Below are positions 213 to 13,766 of a stretch of DNA of 64,000 nucleotides, piece after piece; positions within the stretch are counted from its first letter, which is position 1; every line of letters starts with the position of its first letter. The notes below the pieces were generated by a model that searched no databases, was not told where the DNA came from, and worked only from the letters and a program-made list of their open reading frames with translations. The position numbers and the translations under genes are program-made. The DNA comes from Streptomyces sp. NBC_01723 (lineage in GTDB: Bacteria; Actinomycetota; Actinomycetes; Streptomycetales; Streptomycetaceae): assembly GCF_036246005.1 (NCBI RefSeq), contig NZ_CP109171.1, positions 4,142,001-4,206,000 on the forward strand. Direction: 5' to 3'.

Positions 213-1184
213 ATGCCCGCAGTGACCGTCGAGAACCCGTTGACGCTGCCCCGTGTATCCGCGTCCGCCGACGCCGTCGCACGCCCCGTACTGACCGTCA
301 CGACCGCTCCCAGCGGTTTCGAGGGGGAGGGCTTCCCGGTGCGCCGCGCGTTCGCCGGGATCAACTACCGCCATCTCGACCCGTTCATCATGATGGACCA
401 GATGGGCGAGGTGGAGTACGCGCCCGGCGAGCCCAAGGGCACGCCCTGGCACCCGCACCGCGGCTTCGAGACCGTCACCTACATCATCGACGGGATCTTC
501 GACCACCAGGACAGCCAGGGCGGTGGCGGCACCATCACCAACGGCGACACCCAGTGGATGACGGCGGGCTCCGGACTGCTGCACATCGAGGCGCCGCCGG
601 AGCAGCTGGTGATGTCCGGCGGCCTCTTCCACGGGCTCCAGCTGTGGGTGAACCTGCCGGCCCGGGACAAGATGATGGCCCCGAGGTACCAGGACATCCG
701 CAGTGGCAGCGTCCAGCTGCTCACCTCCCCCGACGGCGGCGCGCTGCTGCGCGTCATCGCCGGTGAGCTGGACGGTCACGACGGCCCCGGGATCACGCAC
801 ACGCCGATCACCATGGTCCACGCCACGCTCGCCCCGGGCGCCGAGGTCACCCTGCCCTGGCGGGAGGAGTTCAACGGCCTGGCCTACGTGCTGGCGGGAC
901 GCGGCTCCGTGGGCGCCGAGCGGCGGCCGGTGCGCCTCGGGCAGACCGCGGTCTTCGGGGCGGGCGGTTCGCTGACCGTCCGGGCGGACGAGAAGCAGGA
1001 CGCGCACACCCCGGACCTGGAGGTCGTGCTGCTCGGCGGGCGGCCGATCCGGGAGCCGATGGCGCACTACGGGCCGTTCGTGATGAACACGCGCGACGAG
1101 CTCCAGCAGGCCTTCGAGGACTTCCAGAAGGGCCGGCTGGGGACGGTCCCGGCGGTGCACGGGATGACCGAGGACGGTCTGTAG
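213..1184 (+). CDS. Pirin family protein
   Basis: A 323-aa bicupin protein of the pirin family. The N-terminal cupin carries the metal-site pattern H80-x-H82 (in HPHRGFETVTY) and H124-x-E126 (in LLHIE), which match the iron ligands of characterised pirins. The C-terminal pirin domain follows to about residue 290. Bacterial pirins are cytosolic; some have quercetinase activity and others modulate metabolic enzymes, so the substrate here is unknown. The ATG at 213 has an AGGAGGT ribosome site 7 bases upstream, which fixes the start. It is monocistronic, between a terminator and a convergent ankyrin gene. Confidence 0.93.
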   Translation: MPAVTVENPLTLPRVSASADAVARPVLTVTTAPSGFEGEGFPVRRAFAGINYRHLDPFIMMDQMGEVEYAPGEPKGTPWHPHRGFETVTYIIDGIFDHQDSQGGGGTITNGDTQWMTAGSGLLHIEAPPEQLVMSGGLFHGLQLWVNLPARDKMMAPRYQDIRSGSVQLLTSPDGGALLRVIAGELDGHDGPGITHTPITMVHATLAPGAEVTLPWREEFNGLAYVLAGRGSVGAERRPVRLGQTAVFGAGGSLTVRADEKQDAHTPDLEVVLLGGRPIREPMAHYGPFVMNTRDELQQAFEDFQKGRLGTVPAVHGMTEDGL

Positions 1185-1222
1185 GTCCTCCGGCGCCGAC
1201 GGCGCCCGGCCGGGGGCGGTTG

Positions 1223-1657
1223 CTACACGGTTTTAGTGCGGGGCGCCGCCCCCGCCGCGATCAGGAGCGCGGCGGTCTCCGGGTGGGGGCCGTCGTTCGC
1301 CCAGTCCAGGGGGGAGCGGCCGGCTCCGTGGTCCTCCCGGAGCCCCGGATCGGCGCCGTGCGCCAACAGTTCCCGCACGGTTTCCGCGTGCCCCCAGCAC
1401 GCCGCCGCGCACAACGGGGTGCCCTCCGCGCCGACTCCGCTGCTCTCGGTGTCGGGAGAGGCGCCCGCCTCCAGCAGCAGCCGCACGATCTCGGTCCTGC
1501 CGCTCACCGCCGCCTCGTACAGGGGGAGCGTGCCCTCGCCGTCGCCCCGCTCGGGGTCGGCACCGGCCCGCAGCACCGTCCGCACACGAGCGGCGTCCCC
1601 CAGCAGTATCGCTTCGAAGAGGTGGCGGGAAAGTTTCTTCTGCTGCCGCTGCTTCAT
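1223..1657 (-). CDS. Ankyrin-repeat protein
   Basis: A 144-aa protein if translation starts at the ATG at 1657 (MKQRQQKKLSRHLFEA). It is built from about four ankyrin repeats: GDAARVRTVLRAGADPE, then TLPLYEAAVSGRTEIVRLLLEAGASPD, then TPLCAAACWGHAETVRELLAHGADPG, then SPLDWANDGPHPETAALLIAAGA. It has no signal peptide or membrane segment and is presumably a small cytosolic protein-binding module with unknown partner. Upstream in-frame starts exist and no candidate has a strong ribosome site, so the start is uncertain. It converges with pirin and diverges from the bacteriocin cassette. Confidence 0.85.
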   Translation of the reverse strand: MKQRQQKKLSRHLFEAILLGDAARVRTVLRAGADPERGDGEGTLPLYEAAVSGRTEIVRLLLEAGASPDTESSGVGAEGTPLCAAACWGHAETVRELLAHGADPGLREDHGAGRSPLDWANDGPHPETAALLIAAGAAPRTKTV

Positions 1658-1731
1658 GGGTGTGGAGGTTAGCGGAGACGAAGTGGCGCGAGCCATCCGG
1701 AGCGGGTGTCCTGCGCGTTCCATCAATGTGC

Positions 1732-1747
1732 AGTGATCATGGTCACT
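1732..1747. promoter_or_regulatory. Imperfect palindrome (operator candidate)
   Basis: AGTGATCATGGTCACT is a dyad centred on CATG with a single broken pair (T/G inside the arms). It lies between the ankyrin gene and the bacteriocin cassette, and TTGACT, a possible -35 element, follows at 1753-1758. It is inferred to be a repressor site for either gene. Confidence 0.35.
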
Positions 1748-1858
1748 CCGTATTGACTGGATAAACTCCGTCCCCGCCGCGTAACTTCTGGCACGTCCAC
1801 TCACCCGGCCGACCACCGGGGACGAGTGGCTTTCACGGGGGCGAGAGCAAGACTCACA

Positions 1859-1888
1859 TCCCGCATTGGCCTTCGGGCCAAGGCGGGA
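1859..1888 (+). promoter_or_regulatory. Leader hairpin with TTCG tetraloop
   Basis: TCCCGC-A-TTGGCC closes on TTCG and pairs with GGCCAA-G-GCGGGA: two 6-bp helices separated by one A/G mismatch. It ends 39 bases before the GTG of the small secreted peptide. It would form in the leader RNA of the cassette and could be an attenuator or an mRNA-stabilising stem. Confidence 0.5.
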
Positions 1889-1927
1889 TTCGGTGTGCCC
1901 CCACACATTCAAGGGGGATCAACACTC

Positions 1928-2212
1928 GTGCGCAAAATGCTTGTCATCGGCCCACTCCTCACCACTGCCATGGCGGTCGTGATTCCACTGAGCGTCGCCG
2001 CTCCCGCCGAAGCGGCGCGGGGCTGGACGGCGCACTTCCAGTGCACCAAGAAGCGCATTTCGGATGACACCGCCCATGGGTTCGTGCAGGGGCACGGCAC
2101 CGGAAAGACGGCGTCGGACGCCAAGAAGGCGGCCAAGAAGAACGCCAACGACCAGATGCCCCGCGGCTATCGCGCCAATCACTGCACCCAGAAGTCGGTC
2201 AAGCAGCTCTGA
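1928..2212 (+). CDS. Small secreted cationic peptide, possible bacteriocin-cassette member
   Basis: A 94-aa protein starting at GTG 1928 behind an AAGGGGG ribosome site. Residues 1-30 form a Sec signal peptide ending near PAEAA, leaving a lysine-rich mature domain of about 64 residues with two cysteines (FQC and NHC) that could form a disulfide. The stretch GKTASDAKKAAKKNA looks like an amphipathic helix. I do not recognise the family. It lies 121 bp upstream of the lactococcin-972-like gene on the same strand; a role as second antimicrobial peptide, accessory factor or exported immunity peptide is inference from position only. Confidence 0.75.
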   Translation: MRKMLVIGPLLTTAMAVVIPLSVAAPAEAARGWTAHFQCTKKRISDDTAHGFVQGHGTGKTASDAKKAAKKNANDQMPRGYRANHCTQKSVKQL

Positions 2213-2239
2213 CCCGAGGCCGGCCGGTCTCTTCTTCCG

Positions 2240-2307
2240 CCCGTCAGGGCACACCCATCCCTCCGGGCACACCCATGCCCGTCAAGGCACACCTATGCCC
2301 GTTTCAG
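2240..2307 (+). repeat. Short tandem repeat between the two secreted peptides
   Basis: Three imperfect 18-20-bp units (2240-2258, 2259-2276, 2277-2296) share GGCACACCCAT, written GGCACACCTAT in the third, and a partial fourth GCCCGTTTCAG follows. It fills most of the 121-bp gap and may be replication slippage or a spacer element. Confidence 0.6.
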
Positions 2308-2333
2308 CAGGCAAGAACGAAAGTGAGTGACAC

Positions 2334-2627
2334 ATGCGTATGAAGAACGGACTCAAGGCCGCAGCCGCCGCCGGTGCCATCGTCATGGCCGTCGCCACCC
2401 CCGCGCTGGCCAAGTCGGTCGACGTCAGTGGCGGCCGGTGGAGCTACGACGTGGGCGCGAACTACGCCTACTCGAACTTCTACCACAGCGTCAATTACCA
2501 CGCTTCCTCCGTTCACGGAAGGAGCTGGGCGTACAGCGGCTGCACCGCCAACAAGAAGTGGTCCAAGGCCTCGGTGGAGAAGTCGAGCATCCACCCCAAC
2601 AGTGCCCATTACGACGCGTCCTGCTGA
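2334..2627 (+). CDS. Lactococcin 972 family bacteriocin precursor
   Basis: A 97-aa precursor. A Sec signal of about 26 residues ends at ALA, leaving a mature domain of about 71 residues beginning KSVDVSGGRWSYDVG with an aromatic-rich YAYSNFYHSVNYH run, typical of the lactococcin 972 family. Lactococcin 972 is a Sec-exported peptide that binds lipid II and blocks septum formation in lactococci. This version has two cysteines, one being the last residue. ATG 2334 is preceded by a weak AAGTGAG; ATG 2340 is an alternative. The family call is strengthened by the DUF1430-like protein and ABC ATPase that follow, the classic immunity/export partners. Its GC content looks lower than that of the neighbours. 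Confidence 0.9.
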   Translation: MRMKNGLKAAAAAGAIVMAVATPALAKSVDVSGGRWSYDVGANYAYSNFYHSVNYHASSVHGRSWAYSGCTANKKWSKASVEKSSIHPNSAHYDASC

Positions 2628-2680
2628 CATTCCGCCGTACGCCACCGCTCACTGATCGAATACCCGGACCCAGGTGACCG

Positions 2681-4798
2681 ATGCTGCACCGAGGTATCAA
2701 ATACGTCCATGCCGCCGTGCTGGCCACCTCCGCGATGATGGCCTTTCTCTTCGTGCGGGGGCTGGACGAGCAACTGGTACTGGGAAATTCGGCCCAGGTC
2801 TGGGTGTTCGAGTCCGACGATTCCGTGAGCGGTGCCCGGGTGGGCCGCGAGATCGCCGAGTTCTCGGAAGAACACGAGGTCTCGGTGGCTCGTGAGGCCC
2901 CCGACATCCGGAATCCCGACGGAATTCGGCACCTTTATCTGACGTCGGGCGCCCCGCGTTCCGACGCCGCTTCGTGGCTGCGTGACGCGTACCCGGGCTT
3001 CAGCGCCCACGTCGAGACGCGAGTGCATCCCCTCGCCGAGATCGGGCAGCGGGATCCGCGAGGCTTCTACTACGTGTTCGGACCGTCCGAGGCCGCTGAC
3101 GCGTTGGTGGCCGAGTTCAGCGGGCTCGGACTGCGCGCGAGCGTGCAGCACCCGCTCTCGGCCGGTGAACTGGCCCTGTTCTTCTCGGGCGACGACCTCT
3201 TCTGGACCTTCTGGGTCGTGGCTCTCGCCGCGGCGGCGACGACCGGCGCGAGCGTACTGCTGAGTGCCAAGGCGTACGGGGTGCTGCGCCTCCAGGGCAA
3301 TTCCCTCCGGGACGTCCTCGCGCGTGACCTCCGGCAACTGGCGGGGTTCTGGGCGGCCGCCGTCTGCGCGGTGGCGGCCGTGACACTCGCCTTCCTCGGC
3401 TACTACAACGGTCTCGCCTGGCTGGGGCTGTTCGCGTCGGTGGCCGTCGCCCTGGCCGGACCGCTGGTTCTCCTGGTCCTGGCCACCCACGCGGCCGCCC
3501 TCGTCCTGATCTCCAAGGTGGCGCTGCCACGCGCCCTCAAGGGCGAACTGCCGGGGCGGGCGGCGCTCGTCGCCACCTACCTGGTGCGTGTCCCGGCGCT
3601 GCTCCTCGCTCTCGCCGTCGCCATGGACGTGGCCCTGGCCGGGCAGCACGTCATGGCGCGGCAGGACACCCGGAGCGCCTACGCCCGGGCGGGCGACGCC
3701 GTCGCCATCCGCCTCAACGGCAGCCTGGTGGGTGAGCAGAGGAAGGTCATCGCCCAGGTCGGCGGGTGGCTGCGCCGGTCCGACACCGCGGGCGAGATCG
3801 TCGTCGCCGGGCGCCGGGACCTCCGGGACGCCTCCTCCGAAGTCCGTCTCCCACCGGGCGAGATGCTCGTCGTCAACGAGACCTTCCTCGCCCGGCAGCC
3901 GGTCCTCGACCCGGCCGGACGCCGGTACTCGGCACGGCCCCCGGACGGGAGGGGCCCGGACGCCCACGGCGTGCGGCTCATCGTCCCCGACTCCCTCGCC
4001 GGCCACACCGCGGACATCCGCGCCGGGCTCCCCGACATGTTCGGGCGGCTCGCACCCGAGGTCCGGCGCGGGCTCGAGGTGACGTCGCTGCGGGCGAAGG
4101 ACGGTCAGCGCCTGTTCGGCTACAACTCCGGCGCTCTGAGCCCCAACACGGCCCACCGCCCGGACGACGACCGGTCCCTGGTGCGCGACCCGGTTCTCGT
4201 CGTGGTGCCCAACGGCTCCCGGATCCTCTCCGACGACACCTACACCGCGTTCGCCAGTCAGGAAGGCATCGTCTTCCCCGACCCGGAGGACGCCCTGGGC
4301 GCGATCACGGCGGACCCGAACGGACTGGGGACCTACGTCACCTCCGTGCGTCCGGTCGGACAGAGCGCCGCGCTGAAACTGCGGGACGCGGTGCACGAAT
4401 TCAGGCTGCAGCTCTTCAATCTCGCCGCGGCGGTGGCCGTCCTGGTCATCACCGGCGTCGGTGTCTGCATGATCCACGCGCGCCGACGTGCCCAGACCGT
4501 TTTCGCCCGGCACGTCAGCGGCTGGCGATTCACGGCGAACCACCGGCTCGTCCTCGCCTCGGAGGGGGTTCTGGCCGTGTTCCTCGCCTGCTGGGTTCCC
4601 GTCCAGGCCTGGCGGCAGAACCAGGAACTGGCGGAGTTCACCGACCGCGGCATCCCCGCTCCGTTCCCGGCGGTCGAGACGACCACGTCGGACCTCGCCG
4701 CCATCGCCGGTCTCGTCGCCGTCCAGGTGTGCGCCGTGCTCATCGCACTCGGCGTCTTCCACCGCCGCGTCGTCAAGGAGGGGGCGGCCGACTCATGA
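2681..4798 (+). CDS. Bacteriocin-associated integral membrane protein (DUF1430-like)
   Basis: A 705-aa membrane protein with the layout of the permease-like protein in lactococcin 972 cassettes: one N-terminal helix (about 10-28), an extracytoplasmic domain to about 165, a cluster of four helices (about 170-325), a second large outer domain (to about 570) and a C-terminal cluster (about 575-695). This resembles FtsX/MacB-type type VII ABC proteins. With the next gene it probably forms the membrane half of an ABC complex for immunity or peptide handling rather than primary export, since the bacteriocin has its own Sec signal. Its stop is 43 bp before the ATPase start. Confidence 0.85.
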   Translation: MLHRGIKYVHAAVLATSAMMAFLFVRGLDEQLVLGNSAQVWVFESDDSVSGARVGREIAEFSEEHEVSVAREAPDIRNPDGIRHLYLTSGAPRSDAASWLRDAYPGFSAHVETRVHPLAEIGQRDPRGFYYVFGPSEAADALVAEFSGLGLRASVQHPLSAGELALFFSGDDLFWTFWVVALAAAATTGASVLLSAKAYGVLRLQGNSLRDVLARDLRQLAGFWAAAVCAVAAVTLAFLGYYNGLAWLGLFASVAVALAGPLVLLVLATHAAALVLISKVALPRALKGELPGRAALVATYLVRVPALLLALAVAMDVALAGQHVMARQDTRSAYARAGDAVAIRLNGSLVGEQRKVIAQVGGWLRRSDTAGEIVVAGRRDLRDASSEVRLPPGEMLVVNETFLARQPVLDPAGRRYSARPPDGRGPDAHGVRLIVPDSLAGHTADIRAGLPDMFGRLAPEVRRGLEVTSLRAKDGQRLFGYNSGALSPNTAHRPDDDRSLVRDPVLVVVPNGSRILSDDTYTAFASQEGIVFPDPEDALGAITADPNGLGTYVTSVRPVGQSAALKLRDAVHEFRLQLFNLAAAVAVLVITGVGVCMIHARRRAQTVFARHVSGWRFTANHRLVLASEGVLAVFLACWVPVQAWRQNQELAEFTDRGIPAPFPAVETTTSDLAAIAGLVAVQVCAVLIALGVFHRRVVKEGAADS

Positions 4799-4841
4799 GC
4801 CTCTCGCGGACGAGAACCCCCCACCCGGCAGGAGCACCTTT

Positions 4842-5522
4842 GTGATCGAGATCGTGAAACTGGCGAAGACCTTCGGCAGCCGCACCCTGTGGTCCGACGT
4901 CACCGTCGACATCGACCGCGGCCGCATGCTGGCCCTCGCCGGCCCCAGCGGATCGGGCAAGTCGACCCTCCTCAACTGCCTCGGCCTCCTCGACCGGCCG
5001 ACCGCGGGCGGAATACTCCACGACGGCGTCGACATCACCCGCTTCGGCAGGCAGGAGGCCCGGCGCTTCCGCCGCGACGTCCTCGGCTACCTCTTCCAGA
5101 ACTACGCCCTGATCGACAACGCCACCGTCGCCGACAACCTGGAGGTCGCGCGCACGAAGCGGCGGGGCCGGCGGGCCCACACCGGCGTCGGTGTCGCGGG
5201 CGCCCTGGACCGCGTCGGCCTGGCGGGCCGGGAGCAGGAGAAGGTCCACCGGCTCAGCGGCGGGGAACAGCAGCGGGTGGCGCTCGCCCGGCTCATCGTC
5301 AAGGAACCCTCCCTGGTGCTGGCCGACGAGCCGACCGGCGCCCTCGACCACGCCAACGCCGACGTCGTCATCGACGTTCTCCGCGAAATGAGCGACGCGG
5401 GATGCGCCGTGGTCATCGCCACGCACGACGACCGTGTCCGTGACCGGTGCGACTCCGTCTTCGCCGTCCACGAGAACGCGCACCACCACCTTCGGGGTGC
5501 TGAACGGTCCGCTGCGTCATGA
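4842..5522 (+). CDS. ABC transporter ATPase of the bacteriocin cassette
   Basis: A 226-aa ATPase of the MacB/LolD-like type found in lactococcin 972 cassettes. It shows Walker A GPSGSGKST (about 31-39), Q-loop FQNYALI (about 86), signature LSGGEQQR (about 138), Walker B VLADEPTGALD (about 160) and an H-loop ATHDD. GTG 4842 with AGGAG at 4830-4834 is preferred. It should energise the DUF1430-like membrane protein. Its stop overlaps the start of the following glycosyltransferase as ATGA, implying translational coupling. Confidence 0.93.
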   Translation: MIEIVKLAKTFGSRTLWSDVTVDIDRGRMLALAGPSGSGKSTLLNCLGLLDRPTAGGILHDGVDITRFGRQEARRFRRDVLGYLFQNYALIDNATVADNLEVARTKRRGRRAHTGVGVAGALDRVGLAGREQEKVHRLSGGEQQRVALARLIVKEPSLVLADEPTGALDHANADVVIDVLREMSDAGCAVVIATHDDRVRDRCDSVFAVHENAHHHLRGAERSAAS

Positions 5523-6994
5523 ATCCCCTGAAAGCCGCCGCCGTCGCCTTCCTCCGACGGCGCCCGCCGCTCTGGTCGATCCCGGTCGTGTGGACCCTCG
5601 CCCTCGGGCTGTGGGGACTCTCCCGGCAGGACAGCGTGTGGCGGGACGAGGCCGCGACCTGGCAGGTGGCCCTCCGGTCGGCCGCCGACATAGGGCACAT
5701 GCTGGGCCGGGTCGACGTCGTGCACGGTCTCTACTACCTGCTGATGCACGGCCTCTTCACGTGCTTCGGGCCCGGCACGACGACCCTGCGGCTGCCCTCC
5801 GTGCTGGCCATGGCGGTGGCGGCCGCCTGTGTGACGGTCATCGGGCACCGGCTGGCCGGAGTCCGGGCGGGCCTGGTCGGCGGGCTGGCGCTGGGGCTGG
5901 TCCCGGCCGTGCAGTTCTATCTGCAGGAGGGCCGCCCGTACGCGCTGATCACGGCCGGAGCGGGCCTCTCGACGCTGCTGCTGGTGACCCTGCTCCAGGG
6001 CCGCGGCCGGACACCGCACTGGGCGGCCTACGCCGCCGCGCTCCTGGTGTGCGGGCTGCTGAACTGGCTGTCGCTGCTGATCCTGCCCGCGCACGCGGCG
6101 ACGCTGGTGTGGGCGCGGGCGACGCAGGCCGTCCTCAGACGCTGGGCGGCGGCCTCGGCGGTCGCCGTGGCCGGTGTTCTGCCGTTGATCCTCTTCAGCC
6201 GGCGGCAGTCCGGCCAGGTCTCCTGGATACCGCCGCTGACCTGGCACATGATGATCGGCCCCGCCGTCCTGCTGGCGATCGGCGCTCTCTGCGCCCTGCT
6301 GAGCCGGCAGAGGGCGGGACGGCTGTCGGTGGCGGCCGTCGGACTGCCGCTGCTGGCGGTGCCGCAACTCGCCCTGGCCGCGCTCTCCCTGGTCCGTCCC
6401 CTGTTCCTGGACCGCTACGTCCTGTTCAGCATGCTCGGTCTGGCCCTGCTGATCGGGGCGGGTCTGAGCGTCGCCACCGCGGCCCTCGGGTCGCGGTTCC
6501 CCAGAGCGTCGTCGTGGCTCGTGCCGGTGGTGGTCACCGCCGCCGTGGTCGCGCTGCTGCCGCAGGCGCTGGCCAAGCGGTCCCCGGCCAGCCGGGTCGA
6601 CGACGTCCTCGCGGCGGCGGCGGACGTACGCAGGGTGAAGCGGCCCGGCGACGCGGTGGTCTTCATACCGGCGGCCCGCCGCGACACCGCGCTGGTCTCC
6701 CCCGACGCCTTCGCGGGACTGCGGGACGTCGCGCTGCGAAAGACGCCCGTGGAGTCCCGGACGTTGAAGGGCGAGGAGGCCGACCCGGCCGGCATACGGT
6801 CCGCGATGCTCGCGCAGCGGCGCATCCTGTTGATCACCGACGCGCCCGGCGTGGCCCGCCCGCTCTCGGCGGAGCGGGACAAGGCGAAGACCGCGGTGCT
6901 GGAGGAGTACTTCACCGTGGCGGGGGACGAGCAGGTCCGCGGACGGCGTCTGACCGTGTACGAGCGGCTTCGGCCGGCGGGCGCCGCGGTCTGA
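5519..6994 (+). CDS. GT-C fold membrane glycosyltransferase, coupled to the bacteriocin cassette
   Basis: A 491-aa polytopic protein with about ten or more membrane helices. The first outer loop contains WRDEAATW, the acidic motif typical of GT39/ArnT-like enzymes that use polyprenyl-phosphate sugars, and a C-terminal extracytoplasmic domain starts near residue 365. Likely role: transfer of a lipid-linked sugar to a lipid, polymer or protein outside the membrane; the acceptor is unknown. ATG 5519 overlaps the ATPase stop, so it belongs to the same transcript. Such an enzyme is not a standard part of lactococcin 972 loci as far as I know. Confidence 0.8.
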   Translation: MNPLKAAAVAFLRRRPPLWSIPVVWTLALGLWGLSRQDSVWRDEAATWQVALRSAADIGHMLGRVDVVHGLYYLLMHGLFTCFGPGTTTLRLPSVLAMAVAAACVTVIGHRLAGVRAGLVGGLALGLVPAVQFYLQEGRPYALITAGAGLSTLLLVTLLQGRGRTPHWAAYAAALLVCGLLNWLSLLILPAHAATLVWARATQAVLRRWAAASAVAVAGVLPLILFSRRQSGQVSWIPPLTWHMMIGPAVLLAIGALCALLSRQRAGRLSVAAVGLPLLAVPQLALAALSLVRPLFLDRYVLFSMLGLALLIGAGLSVATAALGSRFPRASSWLVPVVVTAAVVALLPQALAKRSPASRVDDVLAAAADVRRVKRPGDAVVFIPAARRDTALVSPDAFAGLRDVALRKTPVESRTLKGEEADPAGIRSAMLAQRRILLITDAPGVARPLSAERDKAKTAVLEEYFTVAGDEQVRGRRLTVYERLRPAGAAV

Positions 6995-7020
6995 GAGCGG
7001 CCGGTCCTGACGCCGTGTCA

Positions 7021-7057
7021 CCCGGGCGGGCCGTCCGCGCAGGACACCCCGCCCGGG
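7021..7057 (+). terminator. Hairpin after the bacteriocin/glycosyltransferase operon
   Basis: CCCGGGCGGG (7021-7030) pairs with CCCGCCCGGG (7048-7057) across a 17-base loop. It lies 26 bp after the glycosyltransferase stop and just before the next gene. Confidence 0.5.
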
Positions 7058-7075
7058 GCGTGATCGGCTGGGGAC

Positions 7076-8146
7076 GTGCAGCTGCTTCCCGGCCCGGTCC
7101 GTCGGCTCGCCGCCTGGTGCGCCGTCATCCTGCTCGCCAGCGGTGTCGCCTACGTCGCGATCCGGCTCTGCGTCGAGCTGCGCACCGCGGTGACGCCGGC
7201 GCTGCTCGCGCTGCTCGGCACCGCGCTGCTCAGACCGCTGCACCGACGGCTGGTCAAGGCGCACGTGCAGCGCTCGCTGGCGGCCGGGCTGACCTGCGTC
7301 GCCGTCGTCGCCGTGGTCGGCGGCGCCATGTACATCGTGGTGTCCGCGCTCATCGAGACCGGCGACCAGATCGTCGCCTCCGTCCGGGACGCGGCCCGGG
7401 GCATCGCCGACCACTTCGGGGCGGCCGGGACCTCGCTGGACGACCTGGCGTCCAACGCACGTGACCTGCTGGGCAAGTTCGGCGGGACGGCCGCCTCCGG
7501 TGTGGTCACCGGGCTCAGCGTCGTCGGCGAGATGCTGGCCATGGCCGTACTCGCCCTGCTGCTGGTCTTCTTCTTCCTGCGCGACTCCGACCGGGCCGTC
7601 GGCACCGTGCGCGCCCTCGCCCCGCCCGGCGCCGCCGACACCGTCGAGGCGATGGGCCGGCGCGCCTTCGGGGCCGTCGAGGGTTTCATGCGCGGCACCA
7701 CCCTCATCGCCCTCATCGACGCGCTCTGCATCACCGTCGGGCTGCTGATCCTGCGCGTCCCCGGCGCGGTGGGGCTCGGCGCGCTGGTCTTCGTCGGCGC
7801 CTACATCCCGTATCTGGGGGCGTTCATCTCCGGCACCGTCGCCGTGCTGGTCGCCCTGGCGGACCGGGGGTTCGTCATCGCGCTCTGGGCCCTCGGGGTG
7901 GTCCTGGCCGTGCAGGTCCTCGAAGGGCACGTCCTCCAGCCGATGATCCAGAGCCGGACCGTCCAGATGCACCCGGCGGTCGTGCTGCTCGCGCTGACCG
8001 CGGGGGCGTCGGTGGCCGGCATCCTCGGGCTGCTCCTCGCCGTACCGCTGACCGCGGCGGCGTTCGGAATCGTCCACGAGCTGCAGAAGCGCTACGCCGC
8101 CGCCGAGCCGTCGGCGGGACCGTCCTCCGGGTCCGCGGACTCGTAG
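7076..8146 (+). CDS. AI-2E family transporter (UPF0118)
   Basis: A 356-aa membrane protein with the pattern of the AI-2E exporter/UPF0118 family: two N-terminal helices, a helix near residue 80, a soluble periplasmic segment (about 105-140), then four or five helices with the conserved GALVFVGAYIPYLGAFISG region near residue 235. Characterised relatives include autoinducer-2 exporters and ion antiporters; the substrate is not readable here. GTG 7076 is the only reasonable start but its ribosome site is weak (TGGGGA). Its last 55 bp overlap the end of the convergent SpoIIE-type gene. Confidence 0.87.
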   Translation: MQLLPGPVRRLAAWCAVILLASGVAYVAIRLCVELRTAVTPALLALLGTALLRPLHRRLVKAHVQRSLAAGLTCVAVVAVVGGAMYIVVSALIETGDQIVASVRDAARGIADHFGAAGTSLDDLASNARDLLGKFGGTAASGVVTGLSVVGEMLAMAVLALLLVFFFLRDSDRAVGTVRALAPPGAADTVEAMGRRAFGAVEGFMRGTTLIALIDALCITVGLLILRVPGAVGLGALVFVGAYIPYLGAFISGTVAVLVALADRGFVIALWALGVVLAVQVLEGHVLQPMIQSRTVQMHPAVVLLALTAGASVAGILGLLLAVPLTAAAFGIVHELQKRYAAAEPSAGPSSGSADS

Positions 8147-10242
8147 ACCTCGTACCAGATGCTCTTGCCCTTGCCGCGCGGGGCGACGCCCCAGGCGTCG
8201 GCGAGCAGCTCGATCAGCATCAGGCCGCGGCCCGAGGAGGCCATCTCCCCCGGCCGCCGCTTGTGCGGCAGGTCGTCGCCGTTGTCGGTGACCTCCACCC
8301 GGATCCGCCGTTCGCCGGGCTCGCCGGCCACTTCGGCGACCAGCAGGGCGTCGGTGTCGGTGTGCACCAGGACGTTGGTCAGCATCTCGGAGAGCAGGAG
8401 CACCGCGGCGTCCCGCTGGTCGTCGTCGGGCCAGTCGTGCAGCAGGTCGCGCAGGTGCTGCCGGGCGGTGGCGATCCGGGCGGGCTCGGCCTGCGCGACC
8501 GAGAGCATGGTGCGGCGCACCGTCGGCCGGGCCACGGTGCTGTCGCCGCAGCCGCAGCCCTCGCCCTGCCGGCACAGCAGCAGCAGGGCGATGTCGTCCT
8601 CCCGCCGGTCGGCCAGCGGACCGGTGGTGTGGTGCGAGGAGGGGCCGTGCACGGCCTGGACCAGGGCGTCGGCGAGGTCCTCCAGGCCGCCCTCGTGGTC
8701 CTCCAGGACCACCCGGAGGCGGTGCCAGCCGGTCTGCAGGTCGTGGCCGCCGGTCTCCACCAGGCCGTCCGTGCACAGCATCAGGGTGTCCCCCGGCTCC
8801 AGGGCGAGCCGGGTGGTCGGGTAGTCGGTGTCCGGGTCGATGCCGAGGGGGAGCCCGCCCGCCGTGGCAAGGATCAGCGCCGTCCCGTCCGCCATGCGCA
8901 CGACCGGGTCCAGATGCCCGGCGCGGGCGCTCTCCACGGTGCCGGTCGCGGGGTCGACCTCGGCGTAGTAGCAGGTCGCGAAGCGCAGGTCGCCGGGGTC
9001 CTGGTCGGACTGGGTCAGGCCGTGGAAGAAGTGCGAGGCGCGGGAGAGCACCGCGTCCGGGCGGTGGCCCTCGGAGGCGTAGGCGCGCAGCGCGATGCGC
9101 AGCTGGCCCATCAGCGCGGCCGCCCGTACGTCGTGTCCCTGGACGTCGCCGATGACGATGGCGAAGCGCTCGCCGGGCAGCGGGATCATGTCGTACCAGT
9201 CGCCGCCGACCTGGAGTCCGCCGCCGGTGGGGACGTAGCGGGCGGCGATGTCCATGCCGGGGATCTCCGGGCCCAGCACGGGCAGCATGGCGCGCTGGAC
9301 CCCGTCGGTCAGCTCCCGCTGGGTCTCGGCGGCGCCCGCCCGGGACAGGGCCTGCGCCAGCATCCGCGCCACGGTGGTCAGCACGGACCGCTCGTCCGGG
9401 GTGAACGTGACCGGGTACGCGAAGGCCGCCAGCCAGGCGCCCATGGTGCGGCCGGCCACGGTCAGCGGCAGGTAGGCCCAGGAGCGGCGGCCGAGGCGCT
9501 CGGCGAGCGGCCAGGTCATGGGGTAGCGGGACCGGTACTGCTGGGGGGAGGAGAGGTAGACGGCGCGGCCGGTGCGGGCCACCTCGGCGGCCGGGTAGTC
9601 GGTGTCCAGGGACATGTCCACGAACGGGTTGACCTCGTTCTCGGGCTGCCCGTGGTGGCCGATGACGGTGAGGCGGTCGCCGGAGACCCCGAAGACCGCG
9701 AGGCCGTCCGGCGAGAACCCCGGCATCGACAGGGCCGCGGCGACCCGCAGCACCTCCTCCGTGGAGCGCGCCTCGGCCAGGGCCCTTCCCGCGTCCAGCA
9801 GGAAGGCCTCGCGCGAGCGGCGCCAGTCGCCGGTGACCGCGCTGCGCCCGGCGGGGGTGCCCGGGGTGGGCTCGGTGACCTCCTGGAGGGTGCCGGTCAG
9901 CTCGTACGCCTTGCGCAGGGGGTCGAAGGAGGGCTTGGAGCGGCTGCGGACCACGCGGACGACATGGCCCCGCTCGTCCATGATCCGGATCCGGACCTCG
10001 GCGAGGGTGCCCTCCGCGACGGCGAGCTGGACCACGCCGGTGATCTCGTTCCAGTCGACCGGATGCAGCCGGGCCCGTACCTGTGCCTCGGTGAGGCACG
10101 CCCGTTCCGGGGGCAGCCCCAGCAGGCGGGCGGCCTCCGCGTCCACCGTGACCTCACCCGTGGCGGTGTCCCAGTGCCACAGACCGGTCGCCAGGGCGGC
10201 CAGGACGTCCCCCACGTCGGGCAGGGGCTCACCAGTGCGCAT
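8092..10242 (-). CDS. PAS-GAF-SpoIIE phosphatase with C-terminal anti-sigma-type ATPase domain
   Basis: A 716-aa cytosolic signalling protein. Order: PAS-like domain (about 1-125, GLWHWDTATGEV), GAF (about 150-315), PP2C/SpoIIE phosphatase (about 330-560, with GGDWYDMIPL, IGDVQGHDVRAAALMGQ and TDGLVETG), then a HATPase_c domain of the RsbW type (about 590-705, with LSEMLTNVLVHT and SSGRGLMLIELL). Streptomyces has many such proteins that control anti-sigma/anti-anti-sigma switches; one chain here can both phosphorylate and dephosphorylate partners. No adjacent STAS protein is present, so the partner is elsewhere. It is divergent from aspS, with parS between. Confidence 0.93.
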   Translation of the reverse strand: MRTGEPLPDVGDVLAALATGLWHWDTATGEVTVDAEAARLLGLPPERACLTEAQVRARLHPVDWNEITGVVQLAVAEGTLAEVRIRIMDERGHVVRVVRSRSKPSFDPLRKAYELTGTLQEVTEPTPGTPAGRSAVTGDWRRSREAFLLDAGRALAEARSTEEVLRVAAALSMPGFSPDGLAVFGVSGDRLTVIGHHGQPENEVNPFVDMSLDTDYPAAEVARTGRAVYLSSPQQYRSRYPMTWPLAERLGRRSWAYLPLTVAGRTMGAWLAAFAYPVTFTPDERSVLTTVARMLAQALSRAGAAETQRELTDGVQRAMLPVLGPEIPGMDIAARYVPTGGGLQVGGDWYDMIPLPGERFAIVIGDVQGHDVRAAALMGQLRIALRAYASEGHRPDAVLSRASHFFHGLTQSDQDPGDLRFATCYYAEVDPATGTVESARAGHLDPVVRMADGTALILATAGGLPLGIDPDTDYPTTRLALEPGDTLMLCTDGLVETGGHDLQTGWHRLRVVLEDHEGGLEDLADALVQAVHGPSSHHTTGPLADRREDDIALLLLCRQGEGCGCGDSTVARPTVRRTMLSVAQAEPARIATARQHLRDLLHDWPDDDQRDAAVLLLSEMLTNVLVHTDTDALLVAEVAGEPGERRIRVEVTDNGDDLPHKRRPGEMASSGRGLMLIELLADAWGVAPRGKGKSIWYEVYESADPEDGPADGSAAA

Positions 10243-10403: not shown

Positions 10404-12167
10404 ATGCATCGGTACAGGTCCCACACCTGCGGCGAGCTCCGCTCCTCTGACGTCGGTACCGACGTCCGGCTGAGTGGCTGGCTGCACAATCGGCGCGACC
10501 TGGGCGGCATCCTCTTCATCGATCTGCGCGATCACCACGGCATCACGCAGCTCGTCGCCCGTCCGGGCACCGAGGCGTACGAAGCCCTGGACAAGCTGAC
10601 CAAGGAATCGACCGTTCGGGTCGACGGCAAGGTCGTCTCCCGCGGTGCCGACAACATCAACCCCGACCTGCCCACCGGCGAGGTCGAGGTCGAGGTGGGC
10701 GAGGTCGAGCTGCTCGGCGCCGCGCAGCCGCTGCCCTTCACGATCAACACCGAGGACGGGGTCAACGAGGAGCGGCGGCTGGAGTACCGCTTCCTCGACC
10801 TGCGGCGCGAGCGCATGCACCGCAACATCATGCTGCGCACGTCGGTCATCTCCTCGATCCGCAGCAAGATGGTGGCCCTCGGCTTCAACGAGATGGCGAC
10901 GCCGATCCTCACCGCGACCTCCCCCGAGGGCGCCCGCGACTTCGTCGTCCCGTCCCGCCTCCACGCGGGCCGGTTCTACGCCCTGCCCCAGGCGCCGCAG
11001 CAGTTCAAGCAGCTGCTGATGATCTCCGGCTTCGACCGGTACTTCCAGATCGCGCCCTGCTTCCGTGACGAGGACGCCCGCGCGGACCGCTCGCCGGGCG
11101 AGTTCTACCAGCTCGACGTCGAGATGAGCTTCGTCGAGCAGGAGGACGTCTTCCGTCCGATCGAGCAGCTGATGACGGAGCTGTTCGAGGAGTTCGGCAA
11201 CGGCCGGCACGTGACCTCGCCGTTCCCGCGCATCCCGTTCCGCGAGGCGATGCTGAAGTACGGCTCCGACAAGCCGGACCTGCGGGCCCAGCTGGAGCTG
11301 GTCGACATCACCGATGTCTTCGAGGGCTCGGAGTTCAAGGCCTTCGCCGGCAAGCACGTCCGCGCACTGCCGGTGCCGGACGTCTCCGGCCAGCCGCGCA
11401 AGTTCTTCGACCAGCTCGGCGACTACGCGGTGGAGCAGGGCGCCAAGGGCCTGGCCTGGGTCCGCGTCGCCGAGGACGGCTCGCTGACCGGCCCGATCGC
11501 CAAGTTCCTCACCGAGGCGAACGTCGCCGAGCTGACCAAGCGCCTCTCGCTGGCCGCCGGGCACGCGGTGTTCTTCGGCGCTGGCGAGTTCGACGAGGTC
11601 TCCAAGATCATGGGCGCGGTGCGGGTCGAGGCCGCCAAGCGCGCCGGGCACTTCGAGGAGAACGTCTTCCGGTTCTGCTGGATCGTCGACTTCCCGATGT
11701 ACGAGAAGGACGAGGAGACGGGGAAGATCGACTTCTCCCACAACCCCTTCTCGATGCCGCAGGGCGGCATGGACGCGCTGGAGAACCAGGACCCGCTGGA
11801 CATCCTGGCCTGGCAGTACGACATCGTCTGCAACGGCGTGGAGCTGTCCTCGGGCGCGATCCGGAACCACGAGCCGGAGATCATGCTCAAGGCCTTCGGG
11901 ATCGCGGGCTACGACGCGGAGACCGTCGAGCGCGAGTTCGCCGGCATGCTGCGCGCCTTCCGCTTCGGCGCCCCGCCGCACGGCGGCATCGCCCCGGGCG
12001 TCGACCGCATCGTGATGCTGCTGGCCGACGAGCCCAACATCCGCGAGACCATCGCCTTCCCGCTCAACGGCAACGCCCAGGACCTGATGATGGGCGCGCC
12101 GACGGAGCTGGACGAGTCCCGGCTGAGGGAGCTGCACCTTTCGGTGCGCAAGCCGCAGCCGAAGTAG
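10404..12167 (+). CDS. aspS: Aspartyl-tRNA synthetase
   Basis: A 587-aa class IIb synthetase that charges tRNA with aspartate. Residues about 10-105 form the anticodon-binding OB fold ([13 protein letters not shown]). The catalytic domain has motif 2 [10 protein letters not shown] near 215 and motif 3 [14 protein letters not shown] near 527-540, interrupted by the bacterial GAD insertion (about 290-415). Length is normal for the bacterial type. ATG 10404 lacks an obvious strong ribosome site. A parS site lies in the promoter region and an 18-bp hairpin terminator follows. Confidence 0.97.
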
Positions 12168-12185
12168 GCGGCGACAGTCTTACCG

Positions 12186-12226
12186 GCGAAGGGCCCGGAA
12201 CCGTGTGCCGGTTCCGGGCCCTTCGC
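12186..12226. terminator. Strong bidirectional terminator
   Basis: A 17-bp perfect stem (12186-12202 with 12210-12226), extendable by one G-C pair, between aspS and the convergent Uma2 gene. It can serve both strands. Confidence 0.85.
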
Positions 12227-12231
12227 TGTCG

Positions 12232-12837
12232 TCACGCCTGATCCTCGTCGCGGTAGACCGGCAGGTCGTGGGTCGAGATGGCCCACTCGGCGATGGTGAC
12301 GTCCTCGCCGTAGACGAAATCCTTGCGGGTGGCGTAGCGGGGGCCGCCGGGAGTGGCGTGGATGTCGCTGAGCACGGCGCCGGTCGCGGTGCGGGGGTCG
12401 AAGATCGCGTAGACCGGGATGCCGATCAGAGGGTAGTCGCGCAGCTTGGTGACCCAGTCGTTGTCCGGATTGGAGCGGGAGACGATCTCGACGGCGGCGA
12501 TGATCGTACGCGGGTCGAACGGCCCCTCTCCTTCCATGTCCGCCTCGGCGATGACCATGATGTCGGGGCGGCGCAGGATCCCCTCCGGCTCCATCTCGAC
12601 GTCGGGCTCGCCGGTGTGCGCCACGATCTCCTCGGGCATGACCTTCTCCAGGCGTTTGCGGAGCCGGAGCGCGGTGAGCTCGTGTGGCCGCACGGGCGAC
12701 ATCATGTCGAGGACGATTCCTTCTTTGGTGATCTCGAACTTGCCGGGGAGCGTGCCGTCCGTGGACTCCACGAAGTCGCGCATGACCCTGTACAGGTGGG
12801 ATGCACCCTGCCGTGCGTCGTCCGGGGCGATGGTCAT
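12232..12837 (-). CDS. Uma2 family (DUF820) restriction-endonuclease-like protein
   Basis: A 201-aa protein of the Uma2 family, common in Streptomyces and cyanobacteria and built on the PD-(D/E)xK nuclease fold. Candidate catalytic residues appear in order: EPDVEMEPEGILRRPDIMVIAE (about 95-115), AVEIVSRSNPDND (about 132-144), then a lysine in VTKLRDY (about 147). Function is not established; no substrate or neighbouring methylase is evident. ATG 12837 has GAGGAG about 9 bases upstream. It converges on aspS across the shared terminator. Confidence 0.9.
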   Translation of the reverse strand: MTIAPDDARQGASHLYRVMRDFVESTDGTLPGKFEITKEGIVLDMMSPVRPHELTALRLRKRLEKVMPEEIVAHTGEPDVEMEPEGILRRPDIMVIAEADMEGEGPFDPRTIIAAVEIVSRSNPDNDWVTKLRDYPLIGIPVYAIFDPRTATGAVLSDIHATPGGPRYATRKDFVYGEDVTIAEWAISTHDLPVYRDEDQA

Positions 12838-12884
12838 GGCGCTCGCTCCTCGTCGTCTGTGCCCAGGGGCAAGGATCGTCGCTC

Positions 12885-13766
12885 TCATGCTAGGCGGCCT
12901 CCGGGGGGCACCTCGGATCGGCAGTCGCGGCACCTGCCCGGTTCGGGCGCCCGGAAGGCGCGGTCGCAGGCGTCGCAGGTCTGGAGTGGGTGGCGGGGCT
13001 CGTGGGCCGGTGAGGCCGGTGGCCTGAACGGCGGTGGGGGCGGCAACCGGGCGGTCAGGCGGTGGGCGAGGAGGGCGGCCGGGCGGATCAGGTCGTCGTC
13101 CGGCAGGTTCGCGGTCAGGGCGTGGCGTACGGCGGTCGGGGTGACCTCGCGTTCGAGCCAGGCGGCGACGCCCGGGGCCAGGTGTTCGGCGTCCGTGGCG
13201 GACAGCAGGAGGCGGGGGTCGCGGCGGCGCAGGCCGGTGAGGACTTCGGCCGCCGCCTGGAGGAGGGCGGGAGCGGTGCACGAGGGCTGCGGGACGGCGG
13301 GGAGGCGCTTGCGTGGCGTGGCCTCGTCGGGGTCCGTGCGTCGCCGGGCGGGCCTGCGCGGTGCCGTGTCCCGCGTGGCGCTGCGGTGGCCGGGCCTGTT
13401 GCAGGAGACGGTGCGGGTGACGATGCGGCCGGTGGCCGTGCGCTCCCTGCTGCGGATCAGGTAGCCGTGGGCTTCGAGTTCGTTCAGCGCGGCGGCGATG
13501 CGCGTGGGGCCTTCGGGGAAGCGGGCGGCAAGGGTCTTGATGTCGACGGCGGTGCCCGGCCGCACGGACTGGATGTAGCAGGCCAGTCCGATGGCGAGCC
13601 CCGACAGCTCCGGGTGCTGCACCAGGTCGTTGCCGACCACCGTGAAGTTCTCGGTGTGGCGGACGTGGTCGTGGGTGACGCCGGCGAACGGCTTTTCGGC
13701 GGGGTGATTTTTGCGCGGGATACGGGACTGGGCGCGCAGGGGGGCACTAGGGTTTTCGGTATCCAT
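12885..13766 (-). CDS. Helix-turn-helix protein with C-terminal zinc ribbon
   Basis: A 293-aa protein. Residues about 25-125 form a winged-helix-like region (HPELSGLAIGLACYIQ through VDIKTLAARFPEGPTRIAAALNELEAHGYL), resembling replication-initiator or GntR-like DNA-binding folds. A basic linker and a helical region follow, and the chain ends with a Cys4 zinc ribbon (CDACDRAF then CRDC). This architecture recurs in Streptomyces accessory loci next to XRE/DUF397 genes. ATG 13766 is chosen over upstream starts because an AAGG lies about 8 bases before it. Confidence 0.8.
   Translation of the reverse strand: MDTENPSAPLRAQSRIPRKNHPAEKPFAGVTHDHVRHTENFTVVGNDLVQHPELSGLAIGLACYIQSVRPGTAVDIKTLAARFPEGPTRIAAALNELEAHGYLIRSRERTATGRIVTRTVSCNRPGHRSATRDTAPRRPARRRTDPDEATPRKRLPAVPQPSCTAPALLQAAAEVLTGLRRRDPRLLLSATDAEHLAPGVAAWLEREVTPTAVRHALTANLPDDDLIRPAALLAHRLTARLPPPPPFRPPASPAHEPRHPLQTCDACDRAFRAPEPGRCRDCRSEVPPGGRLA

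Follow-up and report, generated by a model that had tools for sequence, protein, structure and literature searches.

A variant of the lactococcin 972 bacteriocin cassette was found in Streptomyces in which a membrane glycosyltransferase of predicted GT-C fold (GT) is a fourth standing member, next to the bacteriocin precursor, a membrane protein and an ABC transporter ATPase. The window, which is the whole 64,000-nucleotide stretch of Streptomyces sp. NBC_01723 that was analysed, carries this enlarged cassette as five genes on one strand (+), in the order PEP1, L972, D1430, ABC ATPase and GT. All five genes of the preliminary description were recovered at the same positions. PEP1 (1928 to 2212, GTG start) encodes 94 aa with two cysteines, L972 (2334 to 2627) a lactococcin-972-family precursor of 97 aa, D1430 (2681 to 4798) a DUF1430/TIGR01654-like polytopic membrane protein of 705 aa, and the ATPase gene (4842 to 5522, GTG start) a protein of 226 aa. 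The GT gene (5519 to 6994) encodes 491 aa, and its ATG overlaps the TGA of the ATPase gene, forming ATGA. Scans for sigma-70 promoters (none found, compared to 0.2 in shuffles) and for terminators (one found, compared to 1.8) were uninformative for Streptomyces.

The precursor scored 31.2 bits against PF09683, above the cut-off of 22, which places it in that family; against TIGR01653 it fell slightly under the cut-off (30.0 and 32.1 bits, respectively). It represents the one PF09683 locus in the window's genome. A profile of the Streptomyces L972 proteins matched the Lcn972 structure 2lgn (E 3.7e-10); PDB entry 9hkj, named 'Lactococcin 972 family bacteriocin', also matched this profile (E 1.6e-7). 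D1430 had no Pfam match, and although TIGR01654 was its best named match and the gene stands in the right order, the score of 35.6 bits is far under the cut-off of 189.35, so the earlier label of DUF1430-like holds as a remote match only. The best NCBIfam match of the ATPase was TIGR03608 ('L_ocin_972_ABC'; 221.3 bits, cut-off 254.85). Since the best family matches of both proteins were below their cut-offs, these two genes are recognised by gene order and best match. In two Nocardiopsis loci (L120 and L123) a second D1430-like gene was present 3' of the ATPase gene.

The cassette resembles the lactococcin 972 operon (lcn972-orf2-orf3, on pBL1) and the streptococcin B operon (scbABC) in the order precursor, membrane protein, ATPase, in its PF09683 precursor, in the best families of both transporter-like genes and in the 2lgn match. 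It differs from them in the linked GT-C gene, in PEP1 and the leader found in the window, in D1430 and ATPase scores under the curated cut-offs, and in its two-cysteine type-2 peptide. For S. albus J1074, a table entry in PMC3992020 names a bacteriocin of the lactococcin 972 family. Searches of the open-access literature found neither a pairing of lactococcin 972 with a mannosyltransferase nor one of bacteriocin immunity with polyprenyl phosphate in Streptomyces.

The last gene had been described as encoding a GT-C enzyme, and structure prediction agreed. An AlphaFold2 model of GT (mean pLDDT 79, pTM 0.79; alignment of 25 of the 44 GT sequences) gave 23 Foldseek matches at E values up to 0.001 (TMq 0.42 to 0.59), all of them GT-C enzymes or complexes containing one, among them oligosaccharyltransferases and their complexes, ALG9, ArnT, AftA, PglB and DPY19. 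These predictions support a GT-C fold. The only family matches were to the MT1671-type mannosyltransferases (NF052499; 139 bits, cut-off 900) and to PMT_2 (PF13231; 22.2 bits, cut-off 26.1); as both scores are under the cut-off, GT is not a member of either family by that measure. Some close relatives of GT carry PF13231, and the close relatives include an S. parvulus protein of 96% identity. The acidic motif W41-R42-D43-E44, in what we take to be the first outer loop, was invariant in 25 aligned sequences and is presumably catalytic.

D1430 was detected in 22 of 392 Streptomyces genomes, and 34 D1430 loci, 30 from Streptomyces and four from Nocardiopsis, were picked up in a scan of named genome contigs. 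Removal of 11 near-duplicates, including a broken second copy (L088, in G196), reduced 58 D1430 loci to 47 distinct ones. One clade of 28 loci in the D1430 tree (SH-aLRT 100) contained every GT-linked locus; GT lay within 2.5 kb in 25 of these 28, compared to none of the 19 outside, one of which (L113) has a flank of only about 1 kb per side. The same clade split was recovered at 100/100 in a careful tree of 23 loci. Presence of GT beside the cassette is therefore not a peculiarity of this genome, as 25 of the 47 distinct loci were linked. GT and the cassette could have been chance neighbours here, and the exact ATGA overlap, which among the eight loci with a downstream GT was seen only in the window and the conspecific G277, fits such an accident; the survey refuted this explanation, which is now extremely improbable.

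Linkage was retained through changes of place and orientation. In 17 loci the linked GT was upstream and divergent; the gene is truncated in one of these (L080) and cut by the contig end in another (L081). In the other eight it was downstream, in the same orientation as the cassette; one of these, L111, is nested in the divergent group. The preliminary description had the cassette and GT in one transcript, but as a general rule this failed, since GT is divergent in most of the linked loci (17 of 25). The spacing between ATPase and GT in the eight downstream loci was -4, -4, 183, 394, -64, 0, 38 and 212 (starts being our own calls). In one GT-linked locus (L079) a family-2 glycosyltransferase gene (11782 to 12738) follows the ATPase gene.

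Three loci of the clade had no linked GT. The contig of L095 stops 74 bp upstream. L108 has neither L972 nor GT, and since both positions are upstream a single deletion explains both losses, which were not counted as independent evidence. In L077 an unrelated PMT_2-like membrane protein (12026 to 13447; 26.0 bits, cut-off 26.1) occupies the downstream place of GT; a BLASTP comparison with GT gave no meaningful similarity, and this protein may be a functional replacement or may be there by chance.

PEP1 had been read as a Sec-exported cationic peptide, and this was borne out by a signal peptide, identified by eye and ending in AEA, and by a strongly basic mature part (about +9, by our own count). 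No Pfam or NCBIfam family scored above its cut-off. The predicted mature fold was beta-beta-alpha-beta, in a model that was confident in the mature part only (blocks 86-93), and its best PDB match fell short of significance (E 0.55); PEP1 thus matched no known family or fold. A database search returned only Streptomyces proteins, six in number, of which four were named. PEP1 was present in eight of the 47 distinct loci, so it too is found beside the cassette in other genomes, within a single sub-clade in which GT is downstream (or, in L077, the other PMT_2-like protein). PEP1 may take some part in the system.

The bacteriocin peptides fell into two types along the same division. All 25 typed peptides of the GT-linked D1430 clade were type 2, with a cysteine in SGC and a C-terminal cysteine, and all 15 typed peptides outside it were type 1, with the cysteine in CHGS or CHTS and a C-terminal cysteine. 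Seven of the 47 loci were untyped, including L090, although a separate profile search gave an L972 fragment there (44.3 bits); L118, in which the L972 reading contains a stop, was assigned its type from the motif without correction. The cysteine pattern is common to the GT-linked bacteriocins and absent from the others, which is a single evolutionary event, a pattern rather than a test. Some loci have two lactococcin-972 genes: in L023 they are divergent (6946 to 7242, -, and about 7894 to 8190, +), and in L097 the second lies beyond GT.

The main rival to an immunity function is that GT glycosylates (mannosylates) the bacteriocin or PEP1 after export, by analogy with the action of Ram29 on a lipid II-binding lipopeptide. 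As described in excerpts of PMC4635501, Ram29 is a GT-C polyprenyl-phosphomannose enzyme that mannosylates enduracidin in vivo, MppH/I, Tcp15 and Dbv20 are proposed as its relatives, and the ramoplanin class binds lipid II. GT resembles these mannosyltransferases of the ramoplanin, mannopeptimycin, teicoplanin and A40926 clusters, as they are portrayed there, in being a GT-C membrane enzyme that adjoins antibacterial-peptide genes; unlike GT, those enzymes act on nonribosomal peptides, the likeness drawn here is one of description, and many GT copies in Streptomyces stand alone. Besides this precedent, the rival is favoured by the tie of GT to one peptide type and by a Ser or Thr after the conserved Trp in 17 of 17 aligned type-2 peptides, compared to one of 13 type-1 peptides. 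We regard it as somewhat unlikely, given the evidence from co-divergence, solo GT genes and one decaying locus that is set out below.

D1430 distances correlated with GT distances (r 0.77) about as strongly as with ATPase distances (r 0.79), each value being reached in none of 5000 permutations; 22 of the 25 linked loci were used, without L020, L080 and L081. When the species marker PP2C was partialled out the values were 0.78 and 0.76, respectively (again 0 of 5000), in 18 loci, the set excluding L092, L099, L103 and L111, in which the PP2C match was absent, partial or split. GT is therefore bound to the cassette as tightly as the ATPase. The correlation of GT with L972 (0.61) was lower than that with the ATPase (0.74), which argues against glycosylation of the peptide, though short peptides are noisy.

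Copies of GT also occur without the cassette. A single full-length match of at least 67% identity, linked or solo, was present in 32 of 150 Streptomyces genomes, which were mostly cassette-free; G127 has a split GT and G077 a GT fragment. D1430 was found in nine of the 150 genomes. Five of the 32 GT genomes have D1430, adjacent to GT in four and on a separate contig in G102. The cassette-free GT genes occur in many gene contexts, and a group of nine sits in a conserved gene order and so looks vertically inherited. No match to L972, D1430 or PEP1 was found at E 0.05 beside 32 solo GT loci, a further point against a peptide substrate. Small secreted peptides around GT genes were mostly shadow frames and, among the matches listed, none was repeated except L972.

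The abundance of cassette-free copies and the nine that look vertically inherited would also suit a gene of general envelope or stress function that moves together with the cassette and is not directly involved in how the bacteriocin acts. We consider this unlikely, since linkage survives changes of place and orientation and the co-divergence of GT equals that of the ATPase. In the GT tree solo and linked copies were interleaved, with 13 changes in 53 rows (L080 and L054 to L056 left out), at least eight of them forced by the starred branches of this quick tree; shuffles had 17.7 to 17.8 changes, and values as low were seen in 6 to 11 of 500 shuffles. In another GT tree there were nine changes; shuffles averaged 9.9, and 150 to 157 of 500 gave about as few. 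Both trees are unrooted and many of their forks are weak. In the pairs compared, the window and G108 excepted, a linked GT locus and that of its closest solo counterpart had in common the gene and at most about 170 bp upstream. Random capture of resident GT genes by cassettes was not favoured, because GT distances track the cassette as closely as those of the ATPase; for this reason repeated shedding of solo GT genes is the better reading of the interleaving, with the direction unproven. The solo genes could be the older state, which the cassette joined later.

At the window's chromosomal site an AI-2E gene lay between the pirin and PP2C genes in 14 of 15 genomes taken, and neither GT nor the cassette was present there in any of the 15, which indicates that the window carries the ankyrin gene, the cassette and GT as an insertion. 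This small ankyrin-repeat gene (1223 to 1657, -) has counterparts at or near the cassette in the conspecific L076, in L102 (4383 to 4766) and in L078 (14186 to 14569), and one adjoins a type-1 cassette in L089 (7083 to 7436); identity was 64 to 97%. At the same site G108 has pirin, the leader, GT and PP2C but no cassette, and no AI-2E match was found at its version of the site. G108 represents either loss of the cassette with GT kept or a stage preceding cassette entry.

The leader is new: it is a covarying element 5' of this operon and of some bacteriocin-less solo GT genes. Positions 1779 to 1898 (+) of the window, 5' of PEP1, are modelled as two covarying hairpins (model R1) and align with DNA 5' of PEP1 in other loci and 5' of solo GT genes. 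In ten sequences only, both-side changes were found in eight of 22 pairs, compared to 3.3 in shuffles, and sliding of the partners abolished pairing. Against action as RNA, the RNAalifold covariation term was slightly unfavourable (0.13) and further pair types were not in excess (17, compared to 17.9 in shuffles). The leader could act either as RNA or as DNA, and may have a role in the system. No known RNA family was found at E 1 in positions 1000 to 8000 of the window.

Model R1 scored at least 53 bits in 14 of 52 loci searched, a set without type-1 loci; these were seven PEP1 operons and seven solo GT genes with no cassette, including G108. Four of the 14 (L033, L036, L076 and L099) are outside the model's own sequences, and weak matches were seen at two more solo GT genes (L034 and L038). 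There was no match in L077, which has PEP1 and the other PMT_2-like protein, and nothing above 18 bits in the 15 divergent-type loci given. In 81 whole genomes four strong matches (the window and three solo GT genes) and two weak ones elsewhere were found, with filters that lose weak matches; the listing of nearby open reading frames at the weak pair (G039 and G067, 28 bits) identified nothing. The leader thus marks one GT lineage and not all solo GT genes.

Two loci showed decay in opposite parts of the cassette. G075 (L020) keeps GT and the ATPase with D1430 shortened to 460 aa, and no L972 was found there. G281 (L080) has the cassette with an intact L972 and a GT reduced to 145 aa, with relatives of only 41% elsewhere, so GT is not indispensable; retention of L972 beside a truncated GT also counts against glycosylation of the bacteriocin.

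The reading that we tentatively favour, at a little under an even chance, is that GT is an immunity or target-modification enzyme of the cassette that also persists alone. The L972 peptide would exit via Sec, fold outside the cell with one disulfide and block wall synthesis in sensitive relatives; lipid II binding and a block of septum formation are established for Lcn972 only, as stated in excerpts of PMC9964109. D1430 and the ATPase would form a protective transporter. On the outer side of the membrane, GT would use a polyprenyl-phosphate sugar (probably mannose) to glycosylate an envelope acceptor, making the producer less sensitive, and the solo genes would be copies retained for immunity or resistance after the bacteriocin is gone. 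The existence of bacteriocin-less solo GT genes (32 loci) favours immunity, as do the linkage of 25 of 28 compared to 0 of 19 loci, the co-divergence, the linkage that survives changes of place and orientation, the leader with GT but no cassette, and G075. Further support comes from S. coelicolor, in which loss of polyprenol-phosphate mannose synthase or of Pmt makes mutants more sensitive to antibiotics that act on the wall, according to the abstract of PMC5882110. Against immunity stand G281, the type-1 loci that have no GT, Lcn972 itself, which lacks a gene of this kind, the fact that the clade pattern is one event, and the type-2-specific Ser or Thr, which fits peptide glycosylation. There is a parallel in excerpts of PMC11796350, where scbBC occurs without the bacteriocin in 27.5% of pneumococcal genomes; there, as here, non-bacteriocin genes are retained, but as described the transporter pair is kept, whereas the solo loci keep GT.

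With a fourth gene co-diverging with the cassette, immunity or maturation can be approached genetically. It is possible, if more doubtful than the immunity reading itself, that this mobile GT-C gene represents a class of bacteriocin self-protection by outer-face envelope glycosylation. The gene would travel with type-2 cassettes and, in many Streptomyces, remain by itself to confer resistance; in one lineage it would stand under a structured leader of its own. If GT protects, it would tie polyprenyl-phosphate sugar chemistry to how sensitive cells are to a protein bacteriocin, and its numerous solo copies would be among the factors that determine which bacteria in soil withstand that bacteriocin.
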